The notes beneath the pieces are model-generated. The model was not told the origin of the DNA and made no database searches. It saw nothing but the letters and a program-made list of their open reading frames with translations. A DNA stretch of 64,000 nucleotides, taken from contig CANJLL010000004.1 in NCBI GenBank assembly GCA_947475545.1, forward strand, positions 1 to 64,000, in the 5' to 3' direction. Positions 36,575 through 53,321 of the stretch are shown here, one piece after another; within the stretch, counting starts at the first letter, position 1; every line of letters begins with the position of its first letter. The DNA is from Chloroflexota bacterium. Lineage in GTDB: Bacteria; Chloroflexota; Limnocylindria; Limnocylindrales; CSP1-4. The translations under genes were made by a program, and so were the position numbers.

Positions 36575-38758
36575 TCAGCCCTGACCGACGAGGTCGGCTG
36601 GACGGGTCGTGAGCATCGCGTATTCGCGCCGCGACACGATCGCTTCGAAGCTGACATGGCTGCGCCCGACGAAGAGGAGCCCTTCGCCGGGCCGGGCATG
36701 GACAAGGGTCCGTCGCTCGGCGGGCGTGAGATCGAAGTAGCGGGTGAGGGCGTCGGCACCCTCGGGCGTCTGACCGAGCAGGACCCGCAGGTCGCACTGC
36801 TTGACGATCGCCTCGCCGAAGTCCGAGCGCAGGAACTCGACGATGTCCTGGGTCGCGAGTTGGATGCCGGCATGGTAGTGGCGGGCCGAGCGGGCGAGCT
36901 CCTCGATGAAGTCGGCCCCGGACGGCTGGCGCATCACCTTCCAGGCCTCGTCGATGACGACGAGCTTCGGGGCGAGGTCGGCCCGGACGGCATCCCAGAG
37001 GAGACCGAGCGCGGCCAGCTGGGCGATGTCGCGGACCTCCGGATCGCCGATCCCGGCGAGTCCGACGATGAGGACGCGCCGGTCGAGCGGGAGCGCCTCG
37101 TCGGCCGTGAACAGGCTGGCCAGCGACCCGGTCGCCCAGCGTTCGAGCCGCCGGGCAAGCGGTGCCCCGCCGGGCGTGTCCGCGAGCCGCTCGACGAGTG
37201 TCGCGAGCGTCGGCGGACGGCGGCCGTGGGTCGCGGGGTCGGGCCCGATGCCGGCGGCGTCGTAGGCCGCCCGCAGCGCCCGATCGAGGGCGGGCCGTTC
37301 GTCACGTGACAGCCCGCCGGCCATCGCCCCGACGAGACGGCTGAGCATCGCGAGCTTCGCGCTGAGGGCCGCCTCCGCCGTGCCGGCCACGAGGGCGAAC
37401 GGGTTGAGGCCGCCACCCGCACCGAGCTCGACGTACGTCCCGCCGAGTGCGTCCGCGAGCCGCCGGTAGTCGCCCAGCGGATCGACCGCGAGGACGCGGA
37501 TGCCGCGGACGAAGCAGCGGGTCATCTCGGCGCCCGTCAACATCGTCTTGCCGGTGCCGGTCTGGCCAAGGACAATCGCGTTGTGACTCGCGTGGGCGAA
37601 CCGATCGAGGACGATCGGCGCGCCGGTCGTCCGGGAGCGGCCGTACAGGTGGCCTGCGGGTTCGTATAGGTCCGACGCGGTGTTGAGCAGGCTCGCCGCG
37701 AGGCTGGCCGAGTCGAGGTTCCGCTCGGCGATCGGGCGGGCGGCCGGGCCGGGCAGCGCCGCCCCCCAGGCATCGCCGACGCGGAATGTCGCGGACTCGA
37801 CGTCGAGGTCGAGGCTCCGGGCCGCGAGCCGCAAGGCCTCGATCCGCTCGTGGAGCGTGGCGTGGTCGGGCGCCTCGAGGAGCAGCACGGTGTCGACGAG
37901 GTAGATCCGCCCGGCGCCGGCATGGACCGTCCGCCGTGCCCCGGTGGCCATCTCGGACACGCGCTCGCGCTCGACGTCGGCGAGCTCGCCGCGCTCGGCG
38001 GCCAGCCGCTCGGCCGCCCGGACCTGGCGGAGCCGCACGGTCAGGAAGGTCATCGCCTCGGGGCGCGACAGCGGCCGGACCCGCATCGAGACGGCGCTGA
38101 GCCCCGGGGTTCCGAGGAGCCCGCTGAGCCAACCGGGCGCCACCTCGGCCGGCCAGCGCCGGGAGAACGACAGCCCCGCGATGAGGCCCCTGCCGGCCGC
38201 GAGCTGGGCGCCGAGCCGGTATGGCGTGCCGACCCGGGCGAGCTCGGACCAGCGCTCGGCGAGCTCGTCGGACGGCACCTCGCGCAGCGGGATCCCGCGC
38301 TCCTCGGCGACCCGGGCAGCCGTGACGAGCACGCGGCGCAGCTCCGGCTCGGTCGTCCCATCGAGGAGCAGGTACGTCCGGCGGAGCGGCCGGCGGGCGG
38401 CCGCGGACAGCTCGCGATAGAGGGCCGCGTAGGCGGAGAAGGCGCCCGCTGCCCGTCGCCCGTCGACCCGCTCCTCGACGAGCGCGAGATGCTCATCGGG
38501 CGGTCGGTCGGTCGGCACCGACAGGAGCTGGAAGGCGCGCGGAATCGCGTCGTACAGGGCCGCCAGCCCCTCGAGGGCGGCCTCGCGCTCCGCCTCCGCC
38601 ATGAGTTCGAGATGGACCGGGGCGAGCTCGAACCCGCCGATCAGTCGGTCACCGCTCCGGAAGCCGGCAGCCGTGCGTTCCGCCCGTGGCCACGGCGCAT
38701 CCACAACGGGTTCTCGAGCTGGGCGATGGCCGAGGCTGGACAGCGACAGCGGCCTCAT
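36575..38758 (-). CDS. VirB4-like conjugation ATPase
   Basis: A 727-aa ATPase from ATG 38758, overlapping the CpaB gene by 4 bases. The N-terminal half (about 1-380) is the usual poorly conserved VirB4/TraC-type domain (SFSRRWPAEVAPGWLSGLLG). Walker A is GQTGTGKT (about 399); Walker B is LVVIDEAWKVM (about 604), followed by LATQDIVEFL and FVGRSHVSFEAIVSRREYAM. It should power assembly or substrate transfer of the envelope channel. Its last 17 codons are echoed in the mini-ORF at 31708-31833. Confidence 0.9.
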   Translation of the reverse strand: MRPLSLSSLGHRPAREPVVDAPWPRAERTAAGFRSGDRLIGGFELAPVHLELMAEAEREAALEGLAALYDAIPRAFQLLSVPTDRPPDEHLALVEERVDGRRAAGAFSAYAALYRELSAAARRPLRRTYLLLDGTTEPELRRVLVTAARVAEERGIPLREVPSDELAERWSELARVGTPYRLGAQLAAGRGLIAGLSFSRRWPAEVAPGWLSGLLGTPGLSAVSMRVRPLSRPEAMTFLTVRLRQVRAAERLAAERGELADVERERVSEMATGARRTVHAGAGRIYLVDTVLLLEAPDHATLHERIEALRLAARSLDLDVESATFRVGDAWGAALPGPAARPIAERNLDSASLAASLLNTASDLYEPAGHLYGRSRTTGAPIVLDRFAHASHNAIVLGQTGTGKTMLTGAEMTRCFVRGIRVLAVDPLGDYRRLADALGGTYVELGAGGGLNPFALVAGTAEAALSAKLAMLSRLVGAMAGGLSRDERPALDRALRAAYDAAGIGPDPATHGRRPPTLATLVERLADTPGGAPLARRLERWATGSLASLFTADEALPLDRRVLIVGLAGIGDPEVRDIAQLAALGLLWDAVRADLAPKLVVIDEAWKVMRQPSGADFIEELARSARHYHAGIQLATQDIVEFLRSDFGEAIVKQCDLRVLLGQTPEGADALTRYFDLTPAERRTLVHARPGEGLLFVGRSHVSFEAIVSRREYAMLTTRPADLVGQG

Positions 38759-39447
38759 GGGGTCGCGGCCGCTGGAGCCTGCGGGCTGAGCGCGAGATAG
38801 AAGGTCGAGGACAGCGCCGCCGCTGCGAAGTCGACCACCCGATCCTGCGCGATCGCGACGACGACGCTGCCGAGCTTCGGCACGACGAGCGGCTGCGAGC
38901 CGCCGCCGGTGTTCGGGTCGGTCAGGGTGTGCCCATCGGCAGTGCGGAGGGCAAGCACGGTCAGCCCCTGGCCGAGGACGACCGGGGTGGGGGCCGCTGC
39001 CCCCAACAGCGCCTGGGTCTTGAGCGAATTCGGGACGGCGACGACGTCGACCCGGGCGCCGGGCGAAAGCGCGGCCCCGACCGCCTCGGATGGTTCGACC
39101 GGGAGCGCGAAGGCGACCTGCCCCGGACCGAGTGGCGCCCCGAAGCCGAACGCGCGCTGGCCCGGCGTTCGCTCGAGCGCCCGGCCATCGACGTCCTGCC
39201 CGGAAAGGATCGGCAGCGCCGCGTACCAGCCGACGACATCGTCGAGCGAGCGGACCGTGGTCGCCGCGGGATCGAGCGAGCCGACCCGGACGATCTCGAC
39301 CATGTCGGCCGTGATCGGCGTCAGCACCGGGATGTCGACCATGGCCCGGATGATCGCGGTCCGCGGCTGGGCGACGTAGTAGAGGCCCGCGGCGAGCACA
39401 CTCGCGACGAGAAAGACGATGACGTAGGCCGTTCGTCGAGCGCGCAT
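38755..39447 (-). CDS. SAF-domain pilus assembly protein (CpaB/RcpC-like)
   Basis: A 230-aa exported protein. Start ATG 39447 follows a ggggag site. One N-terminal helix (AYVIVFLVASVLAAGLYYVA) precedes a SAF domain (AMVDIPVLTPITADMVEIV, PILSGQDVDGRAL) and an RcpC-like region (VEPSEAVGAALSPGARVDVVAV). CpaB/RcpC proteins belong to Tad pilus systems. The gene is wedged between the PKD-like exported protein and VirB4, showing the mixed Tad/type IV secretion make-up of this cluster. Confidence 0.85.
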   Translation of the reverse strand: MRARRTAYVIVFLVASVLAAGLYYVAQPRTAIIRAMVDIPVLTPITADMVEIVRVGSLDPAATTVRSLDDVVGWYAALPILSGQDVDGRALERTPGQRAFGFGAPLGPGQVAFALPVEPSEAVGAALSPGARVDVVAVPNSLKTQALLGAAAPTPVVLGQGLTVLALRTADGHTLTDPNTGGGSQPLVVPKLGSVVVAIAQDRVVDFAAAALSSTFYLALSPQAPAAATP

Positions 39448-39464
39448 TCCGCTCCCCTCCCCTG

Positions 39465-40664
39465 TCAGTGCGTGACGGCCGAGTAGACGACGCTGACCGA
39501 CACGGCGCCGCTGACCTCCGAGGTCCGGACGGTGCCGTCGGCATACGTCGTCTCGAGCTCGAGCACGAGCCGAACCGGATAGGCCGCCTGGCCGGCCAGC
39601 GGCGTGTTCCACTGGATCCGGACGGGTGCATCCGCCGGATAGGTGTCAGCGCTCGTCGCGTCCGACGCGTCGTTGACGCCGCCCTCGTAGCGATAGGCGA
39701 CGAGCCGGGTGGTGGCGCCGCCGATGACGAGGCCGCCCGAGCGCATGAATCCTTCCCGCTCGATGATCGGGCGGACGTAGAGCGCGCAGGGCAGGCCGCG
39801 CGGCCACCAGAGCGCGGCGTGGCCGACAGCATCCGGAGGAACGAGCGTGCCGTCCGGGAGCGTGCCTGACGGGCTGCCGCCGACGGTGACGACCGGCGCC
39901 ACGTACTCGATCGGCAGGGCGCTCACACCGGACGCGCGGTTGCTGATGTCGAGGGCGAATGGGACCGTCTGCTCGGCGGGAGCCCCGTCGGGCGTGAAGA
40001 AGGCGCCGTAGGCCCGGCCCGTGACGTGCGCCCTGACGACGACGTCGAACGCACCCGGGCCGTACGTGTGCGTCGTCGTGAGCCGAGTGCCGGAGCCCGG
40101 GAACGTCGCCCGGGTGCCGTCGCCGAAGTCCACCGTCCAGCGCTCGACCTGGACGGAGTCATGGATCACGTAGGCCGAGATGACGTCGCCGAGCGCGTCG
40201 AGCCAGCCGGCGGTCAGCCGGGCGGTCACCGTTCGGGCCGTTCCGGCGGGGGCGACGACCGGGTCGACCGACACGGCCAGATAGAGGTCCGCCACCCCGG
40301 CCGTTTGCCGCTCGATCCCGATCCCCGGGGTGGTCTGGCTGGTGATCACCATGATCGGGGTCAGGAGGTTCACGATGCTGTCGTCGGAGCGGTTGTGGAT
40401 GTAGACCCACCACTCGGTCCGGAGCGGGTTCGTCAGGATCGTCGCGCCCCACCGCCACTCCGAGTAATACGTGGTCCGGATCTCCTGGGTCGTGCTCGCC
40501 GGCGGAGCCCACTCCCCGCTCGCCTCAACACCGATATACCCGTGTCCGGTGTCTGAAGACCAGGTGGCCACGGTCACGCCGACCCCGGGGTCATAGGCAC
40601 GTGTCGGCGGCGGCCACAGCAGGGCCGCGGCTATGACGAGCGGGATGAAGATCAGCCGGCGCAC
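39465..40664 (-). CDS. Secreted protein with PKD-like domain
   Basis: A 399-aa exported protein from GTG 40664 after gaggt, with a signal peptide (LIFIPLVIAAALLWPPPTRA). The middle has a PKD-like signature: WTVDFGDGTRATFPGSG and THTYGPGAFDVVVRAHV. The rest is beta-rich with many Trp and Tyr (TYYSEWRWGATILTNPLRTE), as in cell-surface adhesive proteins. It may decorate the pilus or the mating channel. I do not recognise a named family beyond the PKD part. Confidence 0.75.
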   Translation of the reverse strand: MRRLIFIPLVIAAALLWPPPTRAYDPGVGVTVATWSSDTGHGYIGVEASGEWAPPASTTQEIRTTYYSEWRWGATILTNPLRTEWWVYIHNRSDDSIVNLLTPIMVITSQTTPGIGIERQTAGVADLYLAVSVDPVVAPAGTARTVTARLTAGWLDALGDVISAYVIHDSVQVERWTVDFGDGTRATFPGSGTRLTTTHTYGPGAFDVVVRAHVTGRAYGAFFTPDGAPAEQTVPFALDISNRASGVSALPIEYVAPVVTVGGSPSGTLPDGTLVPPDAVGHAALWWPRGLPCALYVRPIIEREGFMRSGGLVIGGATTRLVAYRYEGGVNDASDATSADTYPADAPVRIQWNTPLAGQAAYPVRLVLELETTYADGTVRTSEVSGAVSVSVVYSAVTH

Positions 40665-41210: not shown

Positions 41211-41702
41211 TCAGGTCCTCGCCGCCGCGGAGCCGGTCATCATGAGCGTGACCACGGGCAAGAGCCCCACGAAGCCGAGGAGCGGGATCCGCGCCGGGAC
41301 GGCGACCCGGATGCTCACCGTCGGCGCATCGATCGGCGCACCGGTGATCGGGTCGGTCCCCGGCCCGTTCGTGATGGCGATCTCGGCCCCCGCGGCGATC
41401 TGTGCCGGTGACGCGGCGAGGAGGTCGCTCGTCGCGGCGAGATTGCGAGCGAGGTACTCGCGGGCCAGCGCGTCGGCCTGCGACTCGACGAGGCTGGGCG
41501 GCCCGCCTGCAACGAGCGCCGGCAGATCCAGCGCCTGGGTAGCCGTGAGCGCGGCCATGTCGATCTGCGCCCGGAGCCTGGTGCGCAGGACCTCGAGCGA
41601 GCCCACGGCGAGGACGAGCGCGAGGACGAGCGTCAGGAGCGGGAACAGGACGACGGCGTAGACGGCGACCTGGCCGCGCTCGCCCAGGCGATCAGCGTTC
41701 AA
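41211..41702 (-). CDS. TadE/TadG-like pilus assembly protein
   Basis: A 163-aa protein from TTG 41702, which overlaps the upstream stop by 4 bases (TTGA). The N-terminus ERGQVAVYAVVLFPLLTLVLALVLAVGSLEV is the TadG-like single helix. An extracytoplasmic domain with few features follows, then a second hydrophobic segment at the end (IPLLGFVGLLPVVTLMMTGSA). TadG-like proteins are minor pseudopilin-like parts of Tad systems. Confidence 0.72.
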   Translation of the reverse strand: MNADRLGERGQVAVYAVVLFPLLTLVLALVLAVGSLEVLRTRLRAQIDMAALTATQALDLPALVAGGPPSLVESQADALAREYLARNLAATSDLLAASPAQIAAGAEIAITNGPGTDPITGAPIDAPTVSIRVAVPARIPLLGFVGLLPVVTLMMTGSAAART

Positions 41703-42124
41703 TGGGTCACCTCGCTGCGCGTGACGAACTCGGCGCTCAACGGCACCGACCAGGTCCCGATGAACGGGATGGACGCCTCCTCGCCGATCTCGACCCGGAC
41801 CCGGATCGGGTCGCCCCAGGCGGCGATAGCAGGGTCGATCGTCACCCGGGCGCGGGCCGGATCGATCCCGCCGTCGCGGAGCTCGCCGGCGATCCGCGCC
41901 CGCACCGTCGCGGTGTCGGCGCCGGCGACGGCCGCCTGGCGGGCGCCGGCCGCGGCCGCGGCATCGAGCACGAGCCGGGTGTGCTCGAGCCGCCCGAAGA
42001 TGACGACCGAGAGGAGGATCGGCACGAGGACGAGGGGCACGACGAGGACGGCCTCGAGGGTCGCCACGCCCCATTCGCTGCGGCGGTCGGTCCGCGGCGG
42101 CCGATCCGCCCAACGGCGGCCCAT
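41699..42124 (-). CDS. TadE-like minor pseudopilin
   Basis: A 141-aa protein from ATG 42124. The N-terminal stretch EWGVATLEAVLVVPLVLVPIL matches the type IVb pseudopilin pattern, with cleavage after Gly and Glu at mature position 5. A soluble beta-rich domain of about 90 residues follows (ARVTIDPAIAAWGDPIRVRVEIG). It lies directly after the Flp pilin gene, overlapping by one base, as in Tad loci. Confidence 0.82.
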   Translation of the reverse strand: MGRRWADRPPRTDRRSEWGVATLEAVLVVPLVLVPILLSVVIFGRLEHTRLVLDAAAAAGARQAAVAGADTATVRARIAGELRDGGIDPARARVTIDPAIAAWGDPIRVRVEIGEEASIPFIGTWSVPLSAEFVTRSEVTH

Positions 42125-42315
42125 CAGGCGAGCAGCTGCCCGACGAGCTGGCCGATCTTCGTGGCGAGCCCGTTGTTCCAGGCCAGGATCGCCGCCGCGA
42201 GGACGACGAGGATGATCCCGGCCCCGATGACGTATTCGAGCGTTGTCAAGCCGCGTTCGTCGGCCCGGATTGCCGACCAGATCCGCCGAAGCTCGGCGTT
42301 GATGCGATGGATCAC
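42124..42315 (-). CDS. flp: Flp-type (type IVb) pilin
   Basis: A 63-aa prepilin from GTG 42315 after a strong gggaggt site. A charged leader (ELRRIWSAIRADERG) is followed by G/LTTLEY, the exact Flp prepilin site with Glu5-Tyr6, then a helix VIGAGIILVVLAAAILAWNN. It should be cleaved by a TadV-like peptidase; none is visible in the window, so a chromosomal one must be used. It is the structural subunit of the predicted Tad-like filament. Confidence 0.88.
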   Translation of the reverse strand: MIHRINAELRRIWSAIRADERGLTTLEYVIGAGIILVVLAAAILAWNNGLATKIGQLVGQLLA

Positions 42316-42334
42316 GGTGCACCTCCCATGCGTG

Positions 42335-43240
42335 TCAGATACGCCCCAAGGTCGAAATGAACAGGGGCAACACGACGAGCACGATGAACTCCGGCAGGTA
42401 GACGCCGGCAAGGATCGCGGCGAGCTTCGGCTGGACCGTCGAGGCGGCGCCGAGGAGGCGGTTCCGTTCGCCCTCGCGCAACGCGCGCTCGTGCTCCATG
42501 AGGATCTCGGCCAACCCCTTCCCGAGGTGACGCGCCTGCTCCGCGGCCGCCGCGAGCTCATCGAGCTCCTCGAGATCCGCGGCCGCGGCGACATCGCGCA
42601 GCGCGGCATAGAGGTTCGTGCCGGCGCCGTACGCCGCGACGGCCGAGCGGACCTGGACCGCGAGCAGGTTTCGACCGTCGGAGGCCTCGTGGAGAGCATC
42701 GGCGACGTTCGCCACCGCTCGTTCCAGGCCGTCCTTCCCGGCCAGCGGCCGGACGAGGGCGAGGAAGTCAGGCAGCTCTCGACGGAGCTGGCTTTGTCGG
42801 TGGCGGCCGCGGGCGCCGAGGTACTCGGTGGGGAAGACGTAGCCGATCCAGGCGACCGGCAGGGCCAGGAAAAGGGCGAGCGGGAAGAGCGGGGTCAGGA
42901 CGACCCCGGCCGCAACCGCGCCGAGGGCGAGGACGAGCTTCGCGGCGTAGACCTCGGCCGGCGACAGCGCCCGGGGATCGAGGCCCGCCCGGATGATGTC
43001 GCGCTCGCTGACCTGCGCGGCGAGCGCCGGCGCCCGGGCGGCCAGCCGGGACGCGAGTGGCGCGACGAGCCGCTCCCAGAACGGCTGCTCCGCCGACACC
43101 AGCCGCTCGTACCGATGACGCGGCAGCGCCGCAGCGCGGACCGCATCGAGGCGTGGCGGCGTCGCGAGTCCCGGCGCGAAGAGCGCCATGAGGAGGCTGA
43201 ACACCGCGAGACCGGTCAGGCCAGCGCCAAGCAGCTCCAC
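42335..43240 (-). CDS. tadC: TadC-like type II/IV secretion F-domain membrane protein
   Basis: A 301-aa membrane protein with N-terminal helix (AGLTGLAVFSLLMALFAPG), a pair of central helices (LVLALGAVAAGVVLTPLF) and C-terminal helices (AAILAGVYLPEFIVLVVLPLFI). The cytoplasmic T2SSF domain has LRRELPDFLALVRPLAGKDG and LGKGLAEILMEHERALREGE. It pairs with the TadB-like protein 2 bases upstream as inner-membrane platform for pilus assembly. Confidence 0.87.
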   Translation of the reverse strand: MELLGAGLTGLAVFSLLMALFAPGLATPPRLDAVRAAALPRHRYERLVSAEQPFWERLVAPLASRLAARAPALAAQVSERDIIRAGLDPRALSPAEVYAAKLVLALGAVAAGVVLTPLFPLALFLALPVAWIGYVFPTEYLGARGRHRQSQLRRELPDFLALVRPLAGKDGLERAVANVADALHEASDGRNLLAVQVRSAVAAYGAGTNLYAALRDVAAAADLEELDELAAAAEQARHLGKGLAEILMEHERALREGERNRLLGAASTVQPKLAAILAGVYLPEFIVLVVLPLFISTLGRI

Positions 43241-43242
43241 GG

Positions 43243-44118
43243 CTAGGCCTCCAACCGCGTCACTCGCCAGGACAGGAAGATCCCGCTGACCTCGAGGAGC
43301 GCCGCGGCCGGCAGGAGGACGAACCGACCGAGCGCGGTCTCCATGACCGGGCCGACGAGCTCGTGGTTCGCCACGAGCAGGTACAGGAACAGGAGCGGGA
43401 TGACGACCGCGAGGATCGTCGCCTGCAGCCGCAGGCCCTTGCTCTCGGCGGCCGCCTGGCGCGCGATCGACTGGTTCGAGCGGGCGGCCTCGCCGAGCGA
43501 GCCCAGGACATCGACCGCCGCCGAGACGGGTTGGTGGGTCCGGATCAGGACGAGGAGCGCGTCATACAGGAGGGCGAGGTTCCGCCCGGCCTGTCGGCGC
43601 CGGACGTCGGCGAGAGCGTCGGCCGGCGGCTCGTTCGCGTAGTAGCGGCCGAGAATCTCCTCGAAGTCGGCGCGGACCCAGCGGTGGCGCGCCGCCTCCG
43701 CGGCCGCCGAGAACAGATCCGGGTAGGTGCCGCCAGCGGCGGCGCGATTGACGATCGCCCGGAGGACGCGGGGCGTGTCGTCGTCGGCCGCGCGCGCCTC
43801 ACCGCCGAGCAGGTAGCGGACATAGAGTCGCGGCACGAACACCCCGACAAGGGCGCCGATGAGGCTCATCGGTAGCGAGAGGACGAACCCGACGAGCCCG
43901 AGCCCAATCGGGGCCGCGACCGTGAGTGCCAGGAACGTGCGGGGCGACACGTCGAGGCGGGCCTGGGCGAGGAGCGCGTGGGAGGCGTCGAGCCGGACGC
44001 GCAGCGCAGCCTGCAGCCGATCGACGATGCCAGGTGATGCCCCGACGGGACCCGGCAGGAGCGCCATGAGCGCCGCGAAGACCGCGACGCCGGTCGCGAG
44101 CGCGCCGATCAGCTCCAT
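43243..44118 (-). CDS. tadB: TadB-like type II/IV secretion F-domain membrane protein
   Basis: A 291-aa membrane protein from ATG 44118, overlapping the TadA gene by 10 bases. Helices at about 5-25, 60-105 and 235-285. The T2SSF domain includes RVLRAIVNRAAAGGTYPDLF and SLGEAARSNQSIARQAAAES. Its first residues (MELIGALATGVAVF) resemble those of the TadC-like neighbour (MELLGAGLTGLAVF), as expected of an old duplication. Confidence 0.87.
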   Translation of the reverse strand: MELIGALATGVAVFAALMALLPGPVGASPGIVDRLQAALRVRLDASHALLAQARLDVSPRTFLALTVAAPIGLGLVGFVLSLPMSLIGALVGVFVPRLYVRYLLGGEARAADDDTPRVLRAIVNRAAAGGTYPDLFSAAAEAARHRWVRADFEEILGRYYANEPPADALADVRRRQAGRNLALLYDALLVLIRTHQPVSAAVDVLGSLGEAARSNQSIARQAAAESKGLRLQATILAVVIPLLFLYLLVANHELVGPVMETALGRFVLLPAAALLEVSGIFLSWRVTRLEA

Positions 44119-45410
44119 CGCTCGCCCTCCGACTCGATCCGGGCGGCCAGCCGCGCCGACGGCCGCCAAGCCTCGTTGCGCACGAAGCGGGGTTCGCCCG
44201 GCCGGGAGTGATCGGCCGTGAAGACGTCGCTGAGGCGGTACGTGCCCGCGTCCGTGAGGCCGTCGAGCGCGGCGACCTGGCGGACGACGCGGAGGCCGGT
44301 CCGCAAGCGGCGCAGGATGACGACGAGATCGAACACGCGCGCGATGTACAAGCGCAGGTCGACGACGGTCAGATCGCGCATCGACTGGCGGGCGAGGAGC
44401 TCGAACCGGAACAGGGCATCCTCGGCCGAGCTCGCGTGGATCGTCGTCGCCGAGCCGTCGTGTCCGGTGTGGAGCGCCTGGAGCGTGTAGAAGGCCTCCC
44501 GAGGCAGGCGGATCTCGCCGACGACGAGGCGGTCGGGCCGCATGCGGAGAGCGTTCGCCACGAGGTCGCCGACATCGAGCAGGCGGTTCTCCGCCTCGCC
44601 TGCCACAAGGTCGTGCGGGTGGATCGTTTCGAGGTTGAAGCGGTTTGGGTTCTCGAGGGCGAGCTCGGCCGTGTCCTCGACGACGCCCACCCGCTCCGCC
44701 GGATCGAACAGGTCGGTGAGCGAGCGCAGGTACGTCGTCTTGCCCGCGCCGGTCTCGCCGGCCACGAGGAAGTTCGCCTTGGCCCGGACCATCCGGGCCG
44801 TGAAGTCGGCCATCTCGGCCGACAGGCCGCCCGCGGAGACCCAGTCCCGGCCATGGCGGCCACCGGGCACGAGGTCGAGCCGGAGGCGGTTGAACTTGCG
44901 GATGGAGAGATACGGCCCACCGACCGGCGGGATGACCGCGTTGACCCGTGACCCGTCGGGCATCCGGGCATCGACGATCGGATGGGCGACCGACAGCTCG
45001 CGTCCGGCGAGGGCCGCGATCCGCTCGGCGATCTCGATGAGCTCGCGCGCGGATCCCAGGCGGATCGTCGTCGGCTCGAGACGTCCAGATCGCTCGACGA
45101 AGATCGCGTCCGGCGCGTTCACGAGGATGTCCCCGACTGCGCTGTCCTCGACGAGCGGCTGGAGCGGTCCGAGCCCGCACACGACGGCTTCGACCGCGGC
45201 GACCAGCCCGGGCGCCGGTTCGAGGTCGAGCTCGGGGTCGTCGAGAATCGCCTCGATCGTCCGGCGCAGGAGCGCCTCCTTCTCAGGGGTCCGATCGAAG
45301 GGGTTGAGGGTCTCGGGTGCGAGGCGGGCAACGAGCATCCGCCGGATCGTCCCGAGCGTCGCGGCAGACAGCGGCGGGCGGGCGAACTCGGCGGTGCGCT
45401 CGAGGTTCAC
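44109..45410 (-). CDS. tadA: TadA/CpaF-family secretion ATPase
   Basis: A 433-aa hexameric motor ATPase. The N-terminal domain leads to GLGPLQPLVEDSAVGDILVN and VNAVIPPVGGPYLSIRKF. Walker A is GETGAGKTTY (about 215), the Asp box is VVEDTAEL, Walker B is RPDRLVVGEIR and the His box is HTGHDGSATTIHA. It should drive filament assembly or DNA transfer. It overlaps both neighbours, the ParA-like gene by 4 bases and TadB by 10. Confidence 0.93.
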   Translation of the reverse strand: MNLERTAEFARPPLSAATLGTIRRMLVARLAPETLNPFDRTPEKEALLRRTIEAILDDPELDLEPAPGLVAAVEAVVCGLGPLQPLVEDSAVGDILVNAPDAIFVERSGRLEPTTIRLGSARELIEIAERIAALAGRELSVAHPIVDARMPDGSRVNAVIPPVGGPYLSIRKFNRLRLDLVPGGRHGRDWVSAGGLSAEMADFTARMVRAKANFLVAGETGAGKTTYLRSLTDLFDPAERVGVVEDTAELALENPNRFNLETIHPHDLVAGEAENRLLDVGDLVANALRMRPDRLVVGEIRLPREAFYTLQALHTGHDGSATTIHASSAEDALFRFELLARQSMRDLTVVDLRLYIARVFDLVVILRRLRTGLRVVRQVAALDGLTDAGTYRLSDVFTADHSRPGEPRFVRNEAWRPSARLAARIESEGERWS

Positions 45411-46882
45411 GACCGACTCCCGACGACCTGGCCGAGCGCCCGCCGGACGGCCGAGGCCATCCCGCGCACGGGGTCGCGACCGCGTCCGCGCGACCCGGCC
45501 ATGAGCGGCCAGACGGCGCTGATGACGGGTTGGAGAGCCTGCGCGAACGCCGGATCGGTGGACCAGGCGGGCTCGCCGCGGTCCCCCGCCGTAACGACAC
45601 CGCTAGTCGATGGGATGAGCCCGACGATCGGGACATCGGCCTCGGCGGCGAGGCGGCGGATCGTCGCGTCGTCGTCAGCCATGTTCCCGACGACGGCGAG
45701 CTTACGGCCCATCGCCAGCGTGCGGACGTACTCGGCGACCCGGAGGAGATCGGGCAGCGACTCGATCGTCGGGCGGACGACGGCGAGGACGAGCGAGGCC
45801 TGGTCGATGAGATAGCGGTGGCCCTCCTCGTGGACCGTCCCGAGGTCGGCGACGAGGAGCTGGTAGCCGGCTCGCTGGGCCTCGTCGAGGATCGCCTCGG
45901 CGTCGCGCGCCCGGAAGTCCGACGCTTCGCGCCCGACGACGAGCGGATGCGGCGCGAGGGTCACGAGATCGGTGCCCCAGCGGCTCGTCTCGCGTGCCGC
46001 TTCGAGCGCACCCGGTTGCGTCCACGTCCGCGGCGCCCGACTGCGTGACACGGGCTCGCCAGCGAGCCCGAGCCGGAGGGCGCAGGCGGGGCTCGTTCGG
46101 CTCGCGTCGAGGAGGAGCACGCCCAGTGGTTGCTCGTCGCCGTCGATTGTTCGATACCGGGCGAGCGACGCGATGCGGGTGGCGACCTCGACCGCCAGAG
46201 TCGTCTTCCCGACGCCACCGGCGAAGCTCATCACGCCGACGACCCGGAGACCGGCCAGGACGTGAGGAATCGCGAACGGACGCTCGACCTCCTCCCGGTC
46301 GGGAGTGCCCGGTCCCGGATCCCCCGATCCGGCATCGCCTGGCCTGAGCAGCCTCAGGCGGGCGGCCCCTGTCTGCATCGGCGCTGGCTCCAGAGCACGC
46401 GGAGCTTCGCTGGCGGCCGACTCGTCGACCGTCCCCGGGCCCTGTCCCGGGCGCGACGACTGGCCTCGCCCATCGTCCGCCTCGAGCGACCCGCCCGGCA
46501 ATACAGAAAGTTGCGTACCCAGCGGCATCACGACTCCGGCCTGCGTGCTCTGAGGATCCGCTGCGCCGCTTATCTCCGACTTACCTGGGGCCAGGAGGGT
46601 TGCCTGCCAGACGCGCGGACCCCGGACGTGGCGCACGGCGCGAACGAGCCAGCGATACGCCGGCTCGCCGTGGACCGGCAGGATCGCCGCGATGACGATC
46701 GGGCCTGCGCCCAGGAGAACGAGCAGCAGCCGGATCGGGACCGGGAGCGGGAGAAGATTGAGGACCGCGCCGACGACGACCGCACCAGCGAGGATCCCAA
46801 GCTGGGGTGCCGTCAGGCCGAAGGCGATCGGGTCGTCGCGGATGGCGTTCTCCGGGATCGCCACGAGGCCGTGCTCGTTCAT
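45407..46882 (-). CDS. PrgI-like membrane domain fused to ParA/TadZ-like ATPase
   Basis: A 491-aa fusion from ATG 46882. Residues about 1-95 have two helices in a PrgI-type arrangement (DPIAFGLTAPQLGILAGAVV, IRLLLVLLGAGPIVIAAILP, AYRWLVRAVRHV), typical of the VirB3-like subunit of Gram-positive type IV secretion. A Pro/Gly/Ser-rich linker (about 120-200) leads to a MinD/ParA domain: VMSFAGGVGKTTLAVEV (Walker A near 217), LGVLLLDASRTSPA and LVADLGTVHEEGH. TadZ proteins have this ATPase fold and place Tad pili. The fusion physically joins a secretion-channel part to a Tad localisation part. Confidence 0.82.
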   Translation of the reverse strand: MNEHGLVAIPENAIRDDPIAFGLTAPQLGILAGAVVVGAVLNLLPLPVPIRLLLVLLGAGPIVIAAILPVHGEPAYRWLVRAVRHVRGPRVWQATLLAPGKSEISGAADPQSTQAGVVMPLGTQLSVLPGGSLEADDGRGQSSRPGQGPGTVDESAASEAPRALEPAPMQTGAARLRLLRPGDAGSGDPGPGTPDREEVERPFAIPHVLAGLRVVGVMSFAGGVGKTTLAVEVATRIASLARYRTIDGDEQPLGVLLLDASRTSPACALRLGLAGEPVSRSRAPRTWTQPGALEAARETSRWGTDLVTLAPHPLVVGREASDFRARDAEAILDEAQRAGYQLLVADLGTVHEEGHRYLIDQASLVLAVVRPTIESLPDLLRVAEYVRTLAMGRKLAVVGNMADDDATIRRLAAEADVPIVGLIPSTSGVVTAGDRGEPAWSTDPAFAQALQPVISAVWPLMAGSRGRGRDPVRGMASAVRRALGQVVGSRS

Positions 46883-47973
46883 GACGCGGTCCGCAGCGGG
46901 CCGGGCCCGGCCATCGCGAGCGGCACGAGGGCGACTGGCAGGACGAGCATGAGCAGGGCGCCACCGGTCGCGAGGCCGAGCAGGGCGTTCATGTCGTCCA
47001 CGGTCGGCGGCGTGCCGGCCGCATTGAGATGGGCCAGCCCTTCGAGGCTGAACAGGATGAACACGATCGTCCAGGCGAACCGGACGACGAGGATCGCGGC
47101 GAGGACCTTGAGCCAGACGTTCGTCACCCGCTGGGTTGCCGGCAGGGCGTACGCCGCAAGACAGATCGGCCCGACGATGACGAGGAGGCGCTCGAGCACC
47201 GAGAGCACCGCGTTCAGCATCTGGAGGAAGGTCGTCAGGATCGCCGCGAGCAGGCCGACCGACAGCCAGGCACCGGAGTTCCAGTTGTTCGGACCTTCCC
47301 CGATGCGCGGGTCGAAGCCACCGTTCTGGAGGACCGCGAACACGCCGCCCGACGCCGGCCAGGTGTCGGCACCGCCGACGGCGTTCGCCGGCATCGCCAC
47401 CCCGACCATCGCGAGGTCGGTCGCGATGACGAATTGGGCCAGGACGCTGACCAGGAAGATGCCCAGGACCGACAGCGTCGCCCCGACGACGAAGCGCGGG
47501 GTGACCGCGCGCGCGGTGTAGGTCGATTCCCCGGTCGTCCCGCTGAGCATGACGAGGTAGCCGAGGATGATCCCGCCGAGCGCCAGGAGCGGGATCGTGA
47601 TGAGCAGGATCTTGCCGTACAGGTCGCGCGTCGCCGTGTCGGCGAGCGGGTCGAGCGGGGCAAGGAACTGGCCTCGCAGGTTGTCGATCCCGGCCCGGTT
47701 GGCATCGGAGACCCGCGCCGAGTACCACAGGGTCAGGTCGCGGATCGGGTCCCCGATGATCGGCAGGTCGCCGCGCGGGAGCTCGGTGGCCTCGGTCCCG
47801 AGGGTGGCCGGAGCGATCGCCTCCGGCGCGCTGGGCGGGCGGCCCACGACGGCGAGACCGAGGCCACCGAGCGCCAGCGCCAGGAGGAGCAGGGGCACGG
47901 GGCCGAGCCGGATGAGGGCATCCGGGAGGTGGGGCTGAGCGTAGGCGCGTCGGATCGCTGCTAGGACGACCAT
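46879..47973 (-). CDS. TrbL/VirB6-like polytopic membrane protein
   Basis: A 364-aa protein. It has an N-terminal helix (VPLLLLALALGGLGLAVVG), a soluble stretch with DLTLWYSARVSDANRAG, and then about five helices (ILLITIPLLALGGIILGYLV, LSVLGIFLVSVLAQFVIATD, FLQMLNAVLSVLERLLVIVG, LKVLAAILVVRFAWTIVFIL, LLMLVLPVALVPLAMAG). This order is that of TrbL/VirB6 inner-membrane channel subunits. It overlaps the PrgI-fusion gene by 4 bases. Confidence 0.78.
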   Translation of the reverse strand: MVVLAAIRRAYAQPHLPDALIRLGPVPLLLLALALGGLGLAVVGRPPSAPEAIAPATLGTEATELPRGDLPIIGDPIRDLTLWYSARVSDANRAGIDNLRGQFLAPLDPLADTATRDLYGKILLITIPLLALGGIILGYLVMLSGTTGESTYTARAVTPRFVVGATLSVLGIFLVSVLAQFVIATDLAMVGVAMPANAVGGADTWPASGGVFAVLQNGGFDPRIGEGPNNWNSGAWLSVGLLAAILTTFLQMLNAVLSVLERLLVIVGPICLAAYALPATQRVTNVWLKVLAAILVVRFAWTIVFILFSLEGLAHLNAAGTPPTVDDMNALLGLATGGALLMLVLPVALVPLAMAGPGPLRTAS

Positions 47974-47983
47974 CGGACTATCG

Positions 47984-48376
47984 TCAGAACGGCGGTGCGA
48001 TCAGCCCGTACGCGATCGCGATCGCGGTGATCGTGCTGACGATGACGCCCGCCAGGATCATCCAGACGAGTCCAGTAATCCCGTTCGTGATCCGCTTCTG
48101 AGCCCGGTGCTCCGCGTCCGCGTTGGCGCCGGCGACCGTCTTCTCGATCCCGCCCCAGACGATGACCGCACCGCAGATCGTAATGCCGAGACCGATGGCG
48201 ATGGCCACGAGGGTCCCGAGCATCTTGGTGACCGGCGCCAGCGCCTCTTGCGCGCCCGGCGGGACCGAGTCGGCGGCGACGACCGGACCTACCACGATGA
48301 GCAGCAGGAGTACCGCAGCTGACGCTGCGATGAGCGCCAGATACGTCGGCGTGAAGGCCCGGGTGCGCCGAGACAT
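47984..48376 (-). CDS. VirB2/TrbC-like pilin-type membrane protein
   Basis: A 130-aa protein with a signal-like first helix (YLALIAASAAVLLLLIVVGPVVA) and two further helices (MLGTLVAIAIGLGITICGAVIVWGG and GLVWMILAGVIVSTITAIAIAYG) separated by a charged loop. The short length and signal-plus-two-helix layout match VirB2/TrbC conjugative pilins. It precedes the TrbL-like gene by 10 bases, the common order in type IV secretion clusters. Confidence 0.72.
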   Translation of the reverse strand: MSRRTRAFTPTYLALIAASAAVLLLLIVVGPVVAADSVPPGAQEALAPVTKMLGTLVAIAIGLGITICGAVIVWGGIEKTVAGANADAEHRAQKRITNGITGLVWMILAGVIVSTITAIAIAYGLIAPPF

Positions 48377-48388
48377 CGAGCTCGCTCC

Positions 48389-48994
48389 TCAGCCGGCTGC
48401 CGCGGCCGACTCGTCCGCCGCCGCCGGCCCCGCGCGGAAGCGGCGCACGAACTCGACGATCTGCGGCTCGTCGGCCTCGCCGAGGTCGAGCCCGGCGGCG
48501 CGGAACCAGCTGACCGTCCGGGTCAGGTCGCGCAGCCGATCGAACTCGGCGATGCTGATGAGGATGACCGGGAAGCGGCCGTTCAGCGAGATTGTCTGCG
48601 GCTGGCCGGCCCGGACGCGGTCGATGATTTCGGCGAGGACCCGCTGGATCTCCCGGACACCAACCGTTTGCAACGGGGCGAGGATCTGGCGCGGCTGGCC
48701 GGCCAGTCGCCGGATCGCGCCGAGGCTCGGCTGCACGCGGCCCGAGACGATGGCCGCCAGTTCGCTCGTGTCGCGTGCGAGCTCCGGGTAGATGTCGAGA
48801 CCATGGAGGGCCGACAGCGCCCGCTCGACGCGGATCCAGCGCTCGACCTCGTCGAAGCGGAGCATCGCCGCGGCCGGATGGCCATGCTCGAGCACGATGA
48901 GCGGCGAGCCCTCCTCGACCAGCTCGACCGCAACCCGCAGCTTCTGGCGGACCTCGTTCATCAGCATCGAGCGGAGTTCGCCACGCAGGGTCAT
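48389..48994 (-). CDS. Protein with two Phd/YefM-like segments, probable regulator
   Basis: A 201-aa protein from ATG 48994, overlapping the preceding gene by 4 bases. Two halves each resemble a Phd/YefM antitoxin core: NEVRQKLRVAVELVEEGSPLIVLEHGHPAAAMLRFDEVERW in the first, and REIQRVLAEIIDRVRAGQPQTISLNGRFPVILISIAEFDRL in the second. No toxin gene follows. Placement at the head of the transfer operon suggests a transcription regulator of the operon rather than a toxin-antitoxin pair. Confidence 0.65.
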   Translation of the reverse strand: MTLRGELRSMLMNEVRQKLRVAVELVEEGSPLIVLEHGHPAAAMLRFDEVERWIRVERALSALHGLDIYPELARDTSELAAIVSGRVQPSLGAIRRLAGQPRQILAPLQTVGVREIQRVLAEIIDRVRAGQPQTISLNGRFPVILISIAEFDRLRDLTRTVSWFRAAGLDLGEADEPQIVEFVRRFRAGPAAADESAAAAG

Positions 48995-49284
48995 TCGTCG
49001 GGCTCCCAGGTGAAGTCGGGTGGCAGTGGGGCGACGACGGCTGCTTCGCCACCGTGCCAGGTCAACAGGACCGGCCGGCTGCGTGCCGTCCGAAGGGCAG
49101 ATCGGAGGGTCCGGCGGAACGTCGACACGGAGATCCGGGTCAGTCGTTCGCCGGGGACCGGCGGCCGAAGGAAGGCCACCGGGCGGCCTCGCCGGGTCAC
49201 CAGGATCGTCTCGCCGGCCGACGCGCGACTGACGTACTCGCTCGCCCGGCGCCTGAGGGTGCTGCTGTCGACGACGCATTCCAT
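48991..49284 (-). CDS. Phd/YefM-like small protein heading the transfer operon
   Basis: A 97-aa protein from ATG 49284. The N-terminal half is a clear Phd/YefM fold: VDSSTLRRRASEYVSRASAGETILVTRRGRPVAFLRP. The C-terminal half (LLTWHGGEAAVVAPLPPDF) looks like a further strand-rich piece. The predicted -10 ends 8 bases before the ATG, so the transcript is probably leaderless. As first gene behind a promoter that is repeated at the distal unit, it is the prime candidate for the protein that binds the shared box. Confidence 0.7.
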   Translation of the reverse strand: MECVVDSSTLRRRASEYVSRASAGETILVTRRGRPVAFLRPPVPGERLTRISVSTFRRTLRSALRTARSRPVLLTWHGGEAAVVAPLPPDFTWEPDE

Positions 49285-49291
49285 GGCCGCG

Positions 49292-49344
49292 ACCGTAGCA
49301 GGCGATCGGCCCGGGTGCAAGACCTCAGATGTACAAAATGTGTA
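49292..49344 (-). promoter_or_regulatory. Promoter of the main transfer operon with 18-bp upstream box
   Basis: On the minus strand: TACACATTTTGTACATCT (49344-49327), 6 bases, TTGCAC (-35, 49320-49315), 17 bases, TACGGT (-10, 49297-49292). The box differs at two of 18 positions from that at 31879-31896 and all spacings are identical. The nearest ATG is 8 bases past the -10, implying a leaderless message. Confidence 0.7.
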
Positions 49345-49619
49345 TGAGTTGGGACAGGTGATTGGCATGCATCGGCACCCCGGGATGAGCCGCGAGGCTC
49401 ACTGTGCTCGGACGGGTTGCGCGCCGAAATCGACCCACCAACCGTGATCGAACGTGTCGACGACTGCCTGTCGCCCCCCTACCTGTCAATGATGTGGTCG
49501 GGGCAAGAGGAGTCGAGCCGAGCCCTTACGGGTGAGCGTCCGGATAATGGGCCTACGCCCGCCGGCCCTTCGGATCGTGCAGTCCGTCTGAATCTACCCT
49601 CGCCAAGGTCGTGCCGACT

Positions 49620-50303: not shown

Positions 50304-50615
50304 CACCGGAGTGTGCCATGGCCGGGCAGTGCGAGTAGAGCCTCCGCCGAGGTGCGGGCGGTCCACCTCACTCATGGAGGTCCGGGTTACGGGCTTGGCG
50401 GGCCCTTGACCTCGCGGGTCTGCCGGAGCGCGCCACAGATGAGGCTGCAGCGGAAGTCGCAACTGGATTTGAAGCCGAGGTGACGAGCACAGGCGGCCAT
50501 CGATCCGGGCCGTTGACCTACCCCGGTGTTTCTGTTCGTCGAGGGTCTAACCCGACCGCCCTTGGTGCTACTGGCACAATGCCGGGGTGATGGTGCGGAC
50601 CCACCCTTGGTGTTG
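50304..50615. other. Divergent intergenic region before the STAND gene
   Basis: No gene with coding character is seen in these 312 bases. They should contain the promoter of the STAND NTPase. A weak resemblance to a tRNA T-arm near 50460 was examined and rejected. Confidence 0.35.
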
Positions 50616-53321
50616 ATGGACGCGAGCTTGAATACAACTCCTGGCCAGCCTCCGCTGTCGGCCTTCGTTAGCAGTGGGATGGGCACTCAAGTCGAGGCCG
50701 AGGCGAGGGACGTCTGTTACGAAGTCCTGTCGGCGTCGCTATTCCAACCATGGCTCTTCGAGCACACACCGCCGAGCGCCCGAACGGCCGTTCAGACGTA
50801 CATATCTGCTATCGACCGGTGCGATCTATTCGTCTGGCTCGCCGGCTCCACTACGTCGCCGGCGGTACAGGCTGAGTTGGAGCGTGCGGAAGCCGCGGGG
50901 CGGCCAATCCTTGTCTTCCGGCTTCCAGCTGCGACTCGTGACGCCGAGACCGTGGATTGGGTCGGGCGATTGCGGCGAGCCCGCAAGACAGGTGACGTCA
51001 GAGACACCACGGATCTTCGGGCTCAACTCGTGCAGGCCATTGGCGACTTCGTGGCGGAGTGCGTCAGAGACCGCCAGCCTGTTGCTGGCGACAGCTACCT
51101 AGCGACACTCGCCAGCGACCTCCACGGGATGGCAGTGGCGCGCTGGATGGCGGTCGGATTGGCAACCCCGAAGGCGCAAGAGCTTGCTTCCGATCTCACC
51201 GTAGGTCGCCTACCCCTCGATCAGCTTCCGAACGAGGCGGAACGCCTGCGGGTGCTCGAAGCGCCGGTCGGAGCCGGAAAGACGATTGCCGCGATCCGAT
51301 ACGCTCAGGAGGCCGTCCGACTTGCGCGCGACAACCCAACTGCACCGCTGCCGATATGGGTCTCCGCTGGCGCGACTCCCGACATTGGCGGGGCCGTTCG
51401 TGCTGCCCTGGCACAAGCGGGAAGGCCCCCAGCGGGACCAGTGTTGCTGGTGGTGGATGGCTTGGATGAAAGTCCCAGCGGAACCACGGCATCCGCGGTC
51501 GAGTGGGCGCGGGCGTGCGCCTACTCCCAATCCGAAAGCCGGGTCCTTCTGACCGCTCGACCAAGCATCGTCCGGTTCAGGGAGGGAGAGGCAGCGATCC
51601 TTCCCGAGCTGTCGCCATTTGACGCTACCTCTCTCGTGGCGCGCGCATTCGGGGTAAGCCTCTCCGAACATGCCCTGTACGACCTCGCGGAGCCCCTCCG
51701 CGATGCGGTGCGACGACCGTTGTTCGCCCTCATGCTCGGACGCCTAACCGCCGTCGCACCCATGGCGACCCTGACGTACGTCGGTGAGCTAATCGATAGC
51801 CTGGTGACTGAGGCCCTTAGGCGTAGTGGTACGCCTGACGGCGAACGTGTGCTCGCGACGCTGGCTCGGCTTTCGCTCGACGCCGGGGTGCAAGCGATTC
51901 CGATTCGCGACGTGACCAGCCTGAGCGAGCTGCCGAGTCTCATTGCGACGCGCATGGTGACGGCGTCCCCGGACCGGATGATTCAGTTCTCGCTGCCGAT
52001 ATTCCGAGAGTGGTTCGGCGCTCGGGCGGTCGACCTCGGGTTTGTCGAGGTGGTCGACATTGTCGCGTCGCCGGAGAGGCTCGAACACTGGCGGTACGCG
52101 ATCTTCCTAGCAGCGACGACCATGCGTCGTGACGGCGTCACCGGACTTCTCGACAATCTCGCGCGGTCGGCACCGGGGTTCGCGGGTGAGTTCCTCGCCG
52201 GGGCACCTCCGCCTCAAGAGATGGCGCCCGCACCGGGTTCGGACGCTGCTATTGCCGACTCGATCCGCAACGCTTGGAGCGCCTTCGAGGCGGGTTTGGG
52301 CCACCTCGCCGACATGGTCGGTCCGAAGATCAATGGCGTGCTCCCAACGCTCGGGGTGCAATTGCGTGGTGGAGGGCTGATCTACACATGGTCAAAGACC
52401 GCGAGTACGCCGCCTGGAATCGCTCTCCCCAACTCCTTCTCCTGGGACGCGCCCGTGGACCCCGAATGGGGGCGCCGGAAGTTCCGGGACAGCGTCTCCA
52501 CCGACCCCCTCTGGGCTTGGCGAATTGCTCAGGAAGACCTCAAGGAGGAGTTGCAGGAGGTCCTTGAGGCCCGCGCCTTGTTCCCGGATGTGCCCGCGAT
52601 GCGGGCCGAGGCGGCGTGGAAAGCTGCTCTCCAGCTTTCGCGCTCCGGCGACCACCGGTACGAGGCTCTTGACTCGACCGCGGTCGCCGCGCACCTGGCA
52701 GCCCTCGGTACCGCGGAATTGCTGCGTGAGTGGCCAATGGGAAGGCGCCTGATCCCTCTCGACCCGCTTCGGAGGGTTTTAGCAACAGGTGCCGGCGACC
52801 TCAGGCCACCCTATAACGAACCTGACCAGCTCCGGTCTTCTTTGGTGTGGTCTGGGTTCTCAGACCAGGCGTTGCTTGATCGCACGAGGGCTGTGTACCA
52901 GGCCGCCTTTGAGATCTACCAAGGGTTTGTCGACCACTTCTTTCCTCGGTTCGCGCCCTGGCTTGAGTTGGCCCTTTTGCTCCCTGCCCACGTGCGCGGC
53001 CTGCTGCGGCCCGCGAAGGGCGGCCATTCCCCGGCGCTGACCTACGTCATCGACCCTCTACCGCCCACAGCCAAGACGCGCTTGGAGATCGAGCTGACGA
53101 CAGCCGACAGTCGGGGGACCAATGATTGGGCTTGGCTGGCCATGGAGGGGAATGCAGAGGCGATTGCGCGATTCCGGCCGTGGTCTCCTCCATGGCTCAG
53201 AGCGACGGCGTCGACAACTGTACTTGAGGTGTTTGGCGCAGACCCGGCCACGCGCCTTGCGGAGAAGTGGCTCGCCGCGGATCTGCATCGGATCGGTTGG
53301 CTGAAGAGCGTCCGCGTCTAG
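50616..53321 (+). CDS. DUF4062-like/STAND NTPase, probable anti-phage sensor
   Basis: A 901-aa protein if started at ATG 50616 (upstream start 50526 possible). The N-terminal 130 residues match a DUF4062-type domain: AFVSSGMGTQVEAEA, PWLFEHTPPSARTAVQTYI, CDLFVWLAGS, AGRPILVFRLP. A STAND ATPase follows, with Walker A EAPVGAGKTIAAIRYA (about 215) and Walker B LLVVDGLDESPSG (about 280), then a winged-helix-like region (LTYVGELIDSLVTEALRRSG) and a long C-terminal part without obvious repeats. STAND proteins oligomerise on sensing a trigger; many protect against phage. It is followed 14 bp later by a nuclease gene, the likely effector. Confidence 0.82.
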   Translation: MDASLNTTPGQPPLSAFVSSGMGTQVEAEARDVCYEVLSASLFQPWLFEHTPPSARTAVQTYISAIDRCDLFVWLAGSTTSPAVQAELERAEAAGRPILVFRLPAATRDAETVDWVGRLRRARKTGDVRDTTDLRAQLVQAIGDFVAECVRDRQPVAGDSYLATLASDLHGMAVARWMAVGLATPKAQELASDLTVGRLPLDQLPNEAERLRVLEAPVGAGKTIAAIRYAQEAVRLARDNPTAPLPIWVSAGATPDIGGAVRAALAQAGRPPAGPVLLVVDGLDESPSGTTASAVEWARACAYSQSESRVLLTARPSIVRFREGEAAILPELSPFDATSLVARAFGVSLSEHALYDLAEPLRDAVRRPLFALMLGRLTAVAPMATLTYVGELIDSLVTEALRRSGTPDGERVLATLARLSLDAGVQAIPIRDVTSLSELPSLIATRMVTASPDRMIQFSLPIFREWFGARAVDLGFVEVVDIVASPERLEHWRYAIFLAATTMRRDGVTGLLDNLARSAPGFAGEFLAGAPPPQEMAPAPGSDAAIADSIRNAWSAFEAGLGHLADMVGPKINGVLPTLGVQLRGGGLIYTWSKTASTPPGIALPNSFSWDAPVDPEWGRRKFRDSVSTDPLWAWRIAQEDLKEELQEVLEARALFPDVPAMRAEAAWKAALQLSRSGDHRYEALDSTAVAAHLAALGTAELLREWPMGRRLIPLDPLRRVLATGAGDLRPPYNEPDQLRSSLVWSGFSDQALLDRTRAVYQAAFEIYQGFVDHFFPRFAPWLELALLLPAHVRGLLRPAKGGHSPALTYVIDPLPPTAKTRLEIELTTADSRGTNDWAWLAMEGNAEAIARFRPWSPPWLRATASTTVLEVFGADPATRLAEKWLAADLHRIGWLKSVRV

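Follow-up and report, generated by a model that had tools for sequence, protein, structure and literature searches.

Genes for VirB3-type membrane proteins of type IV secretion systems (T4SSs) typically adjoin virB4, an arrangement that is not strictly defining, and TadZ/CpaE proteins carry an atypical receiver domain at their N-terminus. For PrgI, the available part of one report gives a length of 117 residues and prgH and prgJ(VirB4) as flanking genes (PMC12857230), and VirB3-VirB4 fusions are mentioned in the available part of another (PMC12102498); TadZ, according to a portion of a third source, has an atypical Walker A motif, binds ATP and shows low ATPase activity (PMC6668835). Here, we analyzed a stretch of 64,000 nucleotides (nt) from a Chloroflexota bacterium (Limnocylindria; Limnocylindrales; CSP1-4; assembly GCA_947475545.1, contig CANJLL010000004.1, positions 1 to 64,000 of the forward strand), hereafter the window, in which one gene joins a PrgI/VirB3-like membrane part to a MinD/ParA-type ATPase. 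No description of a VirB3-type anchor fused to such an ATPase was found in the texts returned by a literature search. Reading from sequence patterns, we give a probability of roughly two in three to the view that this one gene has two products: an ATPase tethered to the membrane and a second, free ATPase whose expression, with that of the Tad genes, is driven by an internal promoter of competence type. The gene and its parts are as follows.

45407..46882, minus strand: PrgI::MinD/ParA-like ATPase fusion gene, an open reading frame (ORF) of 491 amino acids (aa) with Pfam domains.
46613..46855, minus strand: PrgI/VirB3-like domain, residues 10-90 (PF12666 and AlphaFold2).
46259..46621, minus strand: linker, residues 88-208, predicted disordered by AlphaFold2, its length varying among homologues.
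45488..46258, minus strand: MinD/ParA-fold ATPase domain, residues 209-465, with the degenerate P-loop SFAGGVGKTT (Pfam, AlphaFold2 and fold search).
45425..45475, minus strand: amphipathic, basic C-terminal helix, residues ~470-486, like a MinD-type membrane anchor (AlphaFold2 and hydrophobic moment).

The fusion is real and not a chance open frame. The ORF runs on the minus strand from the ATG at 46882-46880 to the stop at 45409-45407, and a preliminary description of this DNA, which had read it as a single protein joining a PrgI/VirB3-like part to a TadZ/ParA ATPase through a Pro/Gly/Ser-rich linker, was borne out on this architecture. The domain searches that it had proposed confirmed the PrgI similarity and placed both families above their curated cut-offs, PF12666 (PrgI) on residues 10-90 (E 1.9e-7; 31.9 bits, cut-off 27) and PF01656 (CbiA/ParA) on residues 217-438 (E 3.8e-7; 30.6 bits, cut-off 25.4). 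In an AlphaFold2 model built on an alignment of 17 homologues, two transmembrane helices are predicted in the PrgI part (residues 25-43 and 48-67), the linker, which is indeed rich in Pro, Gly and Ser, has a predicted local distance difference test score below 50 throughout residues 88-208 and is thus predicted to be disordered, and residues 209-465 form a confident domain. The PrgI-domain model had zero matches with E <5 among solved structures, and a profile search of PDB sequences for a solved VirB3 returned nothing relevant. For the clade, 20 loci were fetched. One of them (L058) was set aside because it belongs to another kind of system, in which PrgI stands unfused and is flanked by VirB6-like and VirB4 genes; the remaining 19 and the window give 20 copies of the PrgI domain. 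The frame is open from PrgI into the ATPase in 17 of them, the exceptions being L042, which stops at a contig end, L056, in which the frame is broken and an assembly gap is filled with unknown bases, and L047, which has no ATPase. At L047 (9538-11749), the PrgI part and a motif-bearing linker are retained and the ATPase is replaced, followed by a JAB-like (recognized by eye) and an E1/ThiF-like gene. All 17 through-reading copies are open across 44-77 codons of varying length; the product of the chance probabilities would be ~2e-10 if the copies were independent, which they are not. A programmed frameshift or a separate PrgI gene was rejected, since 0/17 of these copies have a PrgI stop, and because no stop intervenes, the full-length protein should be made whenever PrgI is translated.

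The nearest solved folds to the ATPase model are MinD, FlhG and FleN (Z ~25 over 222-234 residues). The P-loop signature lysine of MinD/ParA is replaced by Ala or Val in 17/17 aligned sequences and the second P-loop lysine by Arg in two of the 17; a full KGGxGK occurs in 0/24 fusions read (17 from the clade and seven distant ones), and the canonical ParA partition P-loop KGGVGKT/S is not present in the fusion ATPase. In most copies, the protein ends in an amphipathic basic helix of 15-20 residues, which has the top hydrophobic moment of the domain in 7/16 and is unremarkable in five (percentile 0.82-0.92; L048, L055, L045, L043 and L054). The name TadZ is only partly apt: the MinD/ParA fold, the position beside tadA and the atypical Walker A agree with it, whereas the best NCBIfam model, CpaE_hom_Actino (TIGR03815), scores 34.3 bits where the cut-off is 154.45, and no receiver-like N-terminal domain was found in the fusion by Pfam or AlphaFold2, residues 1-208 being PrgI and disorder. 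Solved TadZ structures were not among the best 50 fold matches listed, which excludes nothing.

Within the linker, a promoter-like element and candidate internal starts were located.

46553..46585, minus strand: promoter-like composite GGTAAG-N7-TAAGC-N9-GATCCT, its last 6 bases -10-like (motif scan).
46526..46528, minus strand: second candidate internal ATG, Met119, unconserved in the family (alignment).
46388..46391, minus strand: Shine-Dalgarno (SD)-like GGAG, 9 nt before the conserved internal ATG (sequence).
46376..46378, minus strand: conserved internal ATG, Met169, at which a free ATPase of 323 aa may start (alignment and SD).

TAAG-N7-TAAG, which makes two heptads one helical turn apart, is present in 16/20 clade copies, against a chance expectation of 0.2 in the whole 341 kb examined and 0.01 in the window alone. 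The codon before its Ser is ATA, CTA or GTA in 16/16 copies, compared with 37 of 2168 I/L/V codons elsewhere; by this codon pattern, the motif is kept at the DNA level while the amino acids vary. Its two TAA triplets fall in the two other frames, and it is read as a DNA site rather than a frameshift signal because the same motif occurs at unrelated places elsewhere. A -10-like NAnnnT stands exactly 9 nt past TAAGC in 15/16 copies, and no other offset between 3 and 19 has it in more than 3/16. This offset was chosen after viewing the linker sites, and the independent test comes from sites elsewhere and from a scan of the family: NAnnnT lies at 9 nt in 9/11 non-homologous sites in two genomes, and the composite was found in 85/107 family genomes with up to 16 sites per genome, the reversed pattern giving one hit in total. 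As a negative control, an 8-nt spacing variant had one match in eight genomes; the 9-nt composite had 25 matches over seven of those eight (G158 is outside the family). An ATG or GTG follows the hexamer by 6-7 nt in 11/38 sites (linker copies included), as in leaderless promoters, so that the composite appears to be a family-wide promoter-like element with signs of leaderless starts. In the window, its -10-like end lies 175 nt from the ATG of Met169. The 11-bp direct heptads before a -10 presumably resemble OmpR/PhoB- or SARP-type activator sites.

The genes that follow such sites point to competence. Among 20 ORFs scanned downstream of composite sites, four are ComEA-like with SLBB and HHH_3 (L130, L159, L160 and L166) and three have HTH_31/HTH_3 (L134, L136 and L161). 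In the reverse test, 30 SLBB loci were taken from more than 150 matches listed, and a frame below 350 aa, our own cut, was called ComEA-size; TAAG-N7-TAAG stands on the coding strand before 18 of the 22 ComEA-size genes, 14 of them with NAnnnT in place, and was found before 0/8 long SLBB genes and on 0/30 opposite strands. The window genome has the repeat 150 nt before its own ComEA-like gene (L191; NCBIfam comEA E 5.9e-10, below the curated cut-off). In 52 kb fetched from this genome, covering its two further tadA-like loci and a ParA-like locus, the strict motif is absent, and the hybrid operon is therefore the only Tad locus here seen with it. The available parts of two reports give Tad pili a role in the DNA uptake of Micrococcus luteus (PMC4322843) and describe Tad/Flp pili as competence pili in Liberibacter (PMC8513845), which makes a link with competence plausible; no paper on competence control in Chloroflexota was found among the entries listed by the literature search.

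Where the pilin gene begins, the repeat is found again in seven of the loci and in L138, in inverted orientation. These copies, sometimes of three heptads, lie within the first pilin codons (for example, L059:702, L045:15863, L048:5628 and L138:505). No Rfam match was found at 45300-48500, and the opposite orientation at the pilin start argues against a sense-RNA role of the repeat. A plasmid partition or transfer site was set aside in view of the fixed NAnnnT spacing and the sites upstream of comEA-like genes. The repeats could instead be the DNA site of the ATPase or of a partner, rather than a promoter, if the tethered ParA-like ATPase brought DNA of a genetic element carrying the operon to the channel as we assume VirC1 to do. 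The ParA-superfamily fold, the repeats at two places in several operon copies and the nearby DUF87/HerA and Replic_Relax genes are in keeping with such a DNA recruiter, but a composite with a fixed 9-nt NAnnnT spacing before comEA-like and many unrelated genes fits a promoter, and we regard recruitment as quite improbable.

A start site within the linker would give the free product. A linker Met, just ahead of a conserved RLR(L/V), is aligned in 15/20 copies and is preceded by an SD core in 11 of the 15, as against 5.6% of 408 control ATGs (internal and in frame, from nine gene families at the same loci); the median SD duplex energy is -8.1 for the linker Mets and -2.4 for the controls (Mann-Whitney 4e-8, relatives being treated as independent). 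The value for Met119 of the window is -6.1. Where the aligned Met is lacking, L041, L044 and L046 have a Met elsewhere (with an SD only in L044), and L054 has none. The guanine plus cytosine (GC) fraction at third codon positions is 0.51-0.79 in linker part 1 compared with 0.80-1.00 in PrgI, and synonymous change there is under both flanks in 4/8 pairs, the closest pairs included. The preliminary description had held that an internal start separating the two domains would speak against the fusion. The signs of such a start are there, namely the conserved Met, the SD and the promoter-like element; the domains are nevertheless not separated, as PrgI has no stop of its own, and an internal start without a PrgI stop implies a second, free ATPase product.

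Several points weigh against the two-product reading. The motif is absent in L043, L045, L055 and L056 of the 20 copies, the window hexamer GATCCT matches TATAAT weakly, and the pilin-start repeats, in opposite orientation and with NAnnnT in 0/11, are left unexplained by a pure promoter reading. Many composite sites precede ORFs of no known family, and the ComEA assignments are under the NCBIfam cut-offs. The SD of Met169 in the window is modest (-5.6, equaled by 17% of control ATGs), and the aligned Met is absent in L041, L044, L046 and L054, L042 being cut before it. Finally, 4/8 pairs show no reduction of synonymous change in linker part 1. That last point also tells against a read-through accident, in which PrgI and an ATPase with a start of its own would be the working proteins and the in-frame join would have no function. 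The low third-position GC in linker part 1, as expected of a regulatory stretch, the reduced synonymous change in the remaining pairs and the internal start signals would suit such an accident; the lack of a PrgI stop with the frame open in every through-reading copy, and the fusions of other families that have no motif, would not, and we consider it unlikely.

Under the two-product reading, the PrgI/VirB3-like N-terminus of the full-length protein would insert in the inner membrane, next to VirB6 and VirB4, where the protein may dock on VirB4, and the flexible linker would tether the MinD/ParA-fold ATPase to this membrane part; with its degenerate P-loop, the ATPase is probably a nucleotide-binding scaffold and not a motor. 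From the inner promoter, a second transcript would start at ~46546; it would encode the free ATPase, beginning at Met169, together with the Tad genes, and leave out the upstream T4SS genes. The short form, a free ATPase of 323 aa that keeps the MinD-like C-terminal helix, would share its transcript with TadA, TadB, TadC and the pilins. This scheme supposes a working promoter, a working start and Tad expression that follows competence; the fusion would couple both modules in one gene, and the Tad pilus and the ATPase could be raised separately under competence. A wider picture, which we put forward tentatively and with the odds somewhat against it, is a competence-controlled T4SS-Tad hybrid machine for DNA transfer or DNA uptake, in which the nested gene makes a VirB3-anchored and a free MinD-like ATPase, and competence, through the comEA-shared promoter inside the linker, turns the output of the operon from a channel with a tethered ATPase towards an additional pilus with a free ATPase.

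The genes around the fusion are the following.

48991..49368, minus strand: second Phd/YefM-like protein (profile matches).
48389..49279, minus strand: Phd/YefM-like protein matched over two stretches; its place upstream of the pilin is conserved (profile matches).
47984..48376, minus strand: T4SS pilin, PF18895 (24.6 bits, just below the cut-off of 26.6).
46879..47973, minus strand: VirB6-like polytopic membrane protein, without a Pfam match, named from context and conserved position.
44109..45410, minus strand: TadA/VirB11-type ATPase (Pfam and NCBIfam), starting within the stop of the fusion.
43243..44232, minus strand: TadB, T2SSF (Pfam).
42335..43240, minus strand: TadC, T2SSF (23.8 bits, just below the cut-off of 25.2).
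42124..42420, minus strand: Flp-type pilin-like ORF, without an NCBIfam match, named from position and sequence.
41699..42322, minus strand: TadE (Pfam).
36575..39832, minus strand: VirB4-family ATPase, conserved from about residue 340 of the ORF.

The fusion thus sits between a T4SS block (pilin and VirB6-like) and a Tad block (TadA, TadB, TadC, Flp and TadE), and the end of the VirB6-like gene overlaps its start by ATGA. Further downstream come TadE, a second TadE-like protein, two conserved proteins, VirB4, an M23 peptidase, a DUF87/HerA-type ATPase and Replic_Relax; virB4 of the window is not adjacent to the fusion, with the genes from TadA through a PKD protein standing between. Upstream, 16 of the 20 loci scanned have a relative of the first Phd/YefM-like protein, and 13 have a relative of the second. 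This pair before the pilin (48389-49368 in the window, and at other loci) has no obvious toxin alongside, and the two are possible operon regulators. Elsewhere in the window, a 931-aa protein on the plus strand (50526-53321) has, by eye, a TIR/DUF4062-like start and then a NACHT-like P-loop region, with no PADLOC match.

The order pilin - VirB6 - fusion - TadA - TadB - TadC holds across the clade loci as far as the contigs extend, and the preliminary description had taken the covalent join as direct support for one T4SS-Tad assembly with a polar-localization module. The fusion would then be a physical bridge, with placement at the pole via TadZ, in line with this synteny and with CpaE_hom_Actino as the best, though sub-threshold, NCBIfam model of the ATPase. 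The distant relatives bear on this point. An alignment search of 400 sampled genomes of the phylum was made and the nine strongest stretches were fetched, weaker matches lying below them; both parts are present in seven of the nine (L117 and L121 are cut), the PrgI-like N-terminus of L114 being recognized by eye only, and the fusions of other families are without the linker TAAG motif. Tad genes adjoin the fusions in L113-L116. In L118, L119 and L120, by contrast with the bridge model, VirB4 comes directly after the fusion and TadA, TadB and TadC were not found on the whole contigs, T2SSE-family ATPases being encoded away from the fusion in these three genomes. The fusion alone is therefore no proof of a single T4SS-Tad machine; because these three precede virB4 without Tad genes on the contig, it belongs to the T4SS module, and its Tad link is via the operon. 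Moreover, there is no receiver-like domain, and the internal promoter and start would also yield an untethered ATPase. A bridge thus seems rather unlikely, and the preliminary description was right in its observation and half right in its interpretation: the conserved join between the two blocks stands, the single assembly does not follow from it.

The PrgI part of the window was matched (E <=0.01) in 20/177 genomes of the class, 15 of them at <1e-10, and the same search gave no match in the only other genome of the genus of the window. Up to four copies occur per genome (four in G045, three in G115 and two in G059). Since the spread is patchy and multi-copy, a mobile element is suggested; fusion relatives had zero matches in the plasmids and viral contigs searched. 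One match is on contig JACCVQ010000061.1 of a metagenome-assembled genome (Chloroflexi bacterium), with the match at the same position as in L059.

The fusion offers a concrete handle on the wiring between a T4SS and a Tad pilus, which the nested promoter makes testable, and an element common to the comEA-like genes of the family would tie the hybrid operon to competence. Compared with known systems, it resembles PrgI/VirB3 (PF12666) in its above-cut-off profile, its two predicted transmembrane helices and its place right after a VirB6-like gene, and differs in being a protein of 491 aa instead of a small one and, in the window, in not lying beside virB4. Like the VirB3-VirB4 fusions, as far as these are described in the source cited above, it joins a VirB3-type membrane part covalently to a P-loop ATPase from its own system, but here the ATPase is of the MinD/ParA type and VirB4 is a separate gene. 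With TadZ/CpaE, including actinobacterial Ssd (TIGR03815), it shares the MinD/ParA superfamily, a tadA neighbor and, going by the portion of the TadZ report at hand, an atypical Walker A, whereas PrgI takes the place of the receiver-like N-terminus and the score is far below the curated cut-off. MinD, FlhG and FleN are alike in fold and in the C-terminal amphipathic basic helix; the fusion differs from them in being joined to a membrane domain and in lacking the P-loop signature lysine. Finally, as in the competence pili of Micrococcus luteus and Liberibacter, to the extent that the excerpts describe them, Tad genes are tied to DNA uptake; in the present case, the tie consists of a shared promoter-like element known from sequence, and Tad and T4SS genes stand together in one operon.

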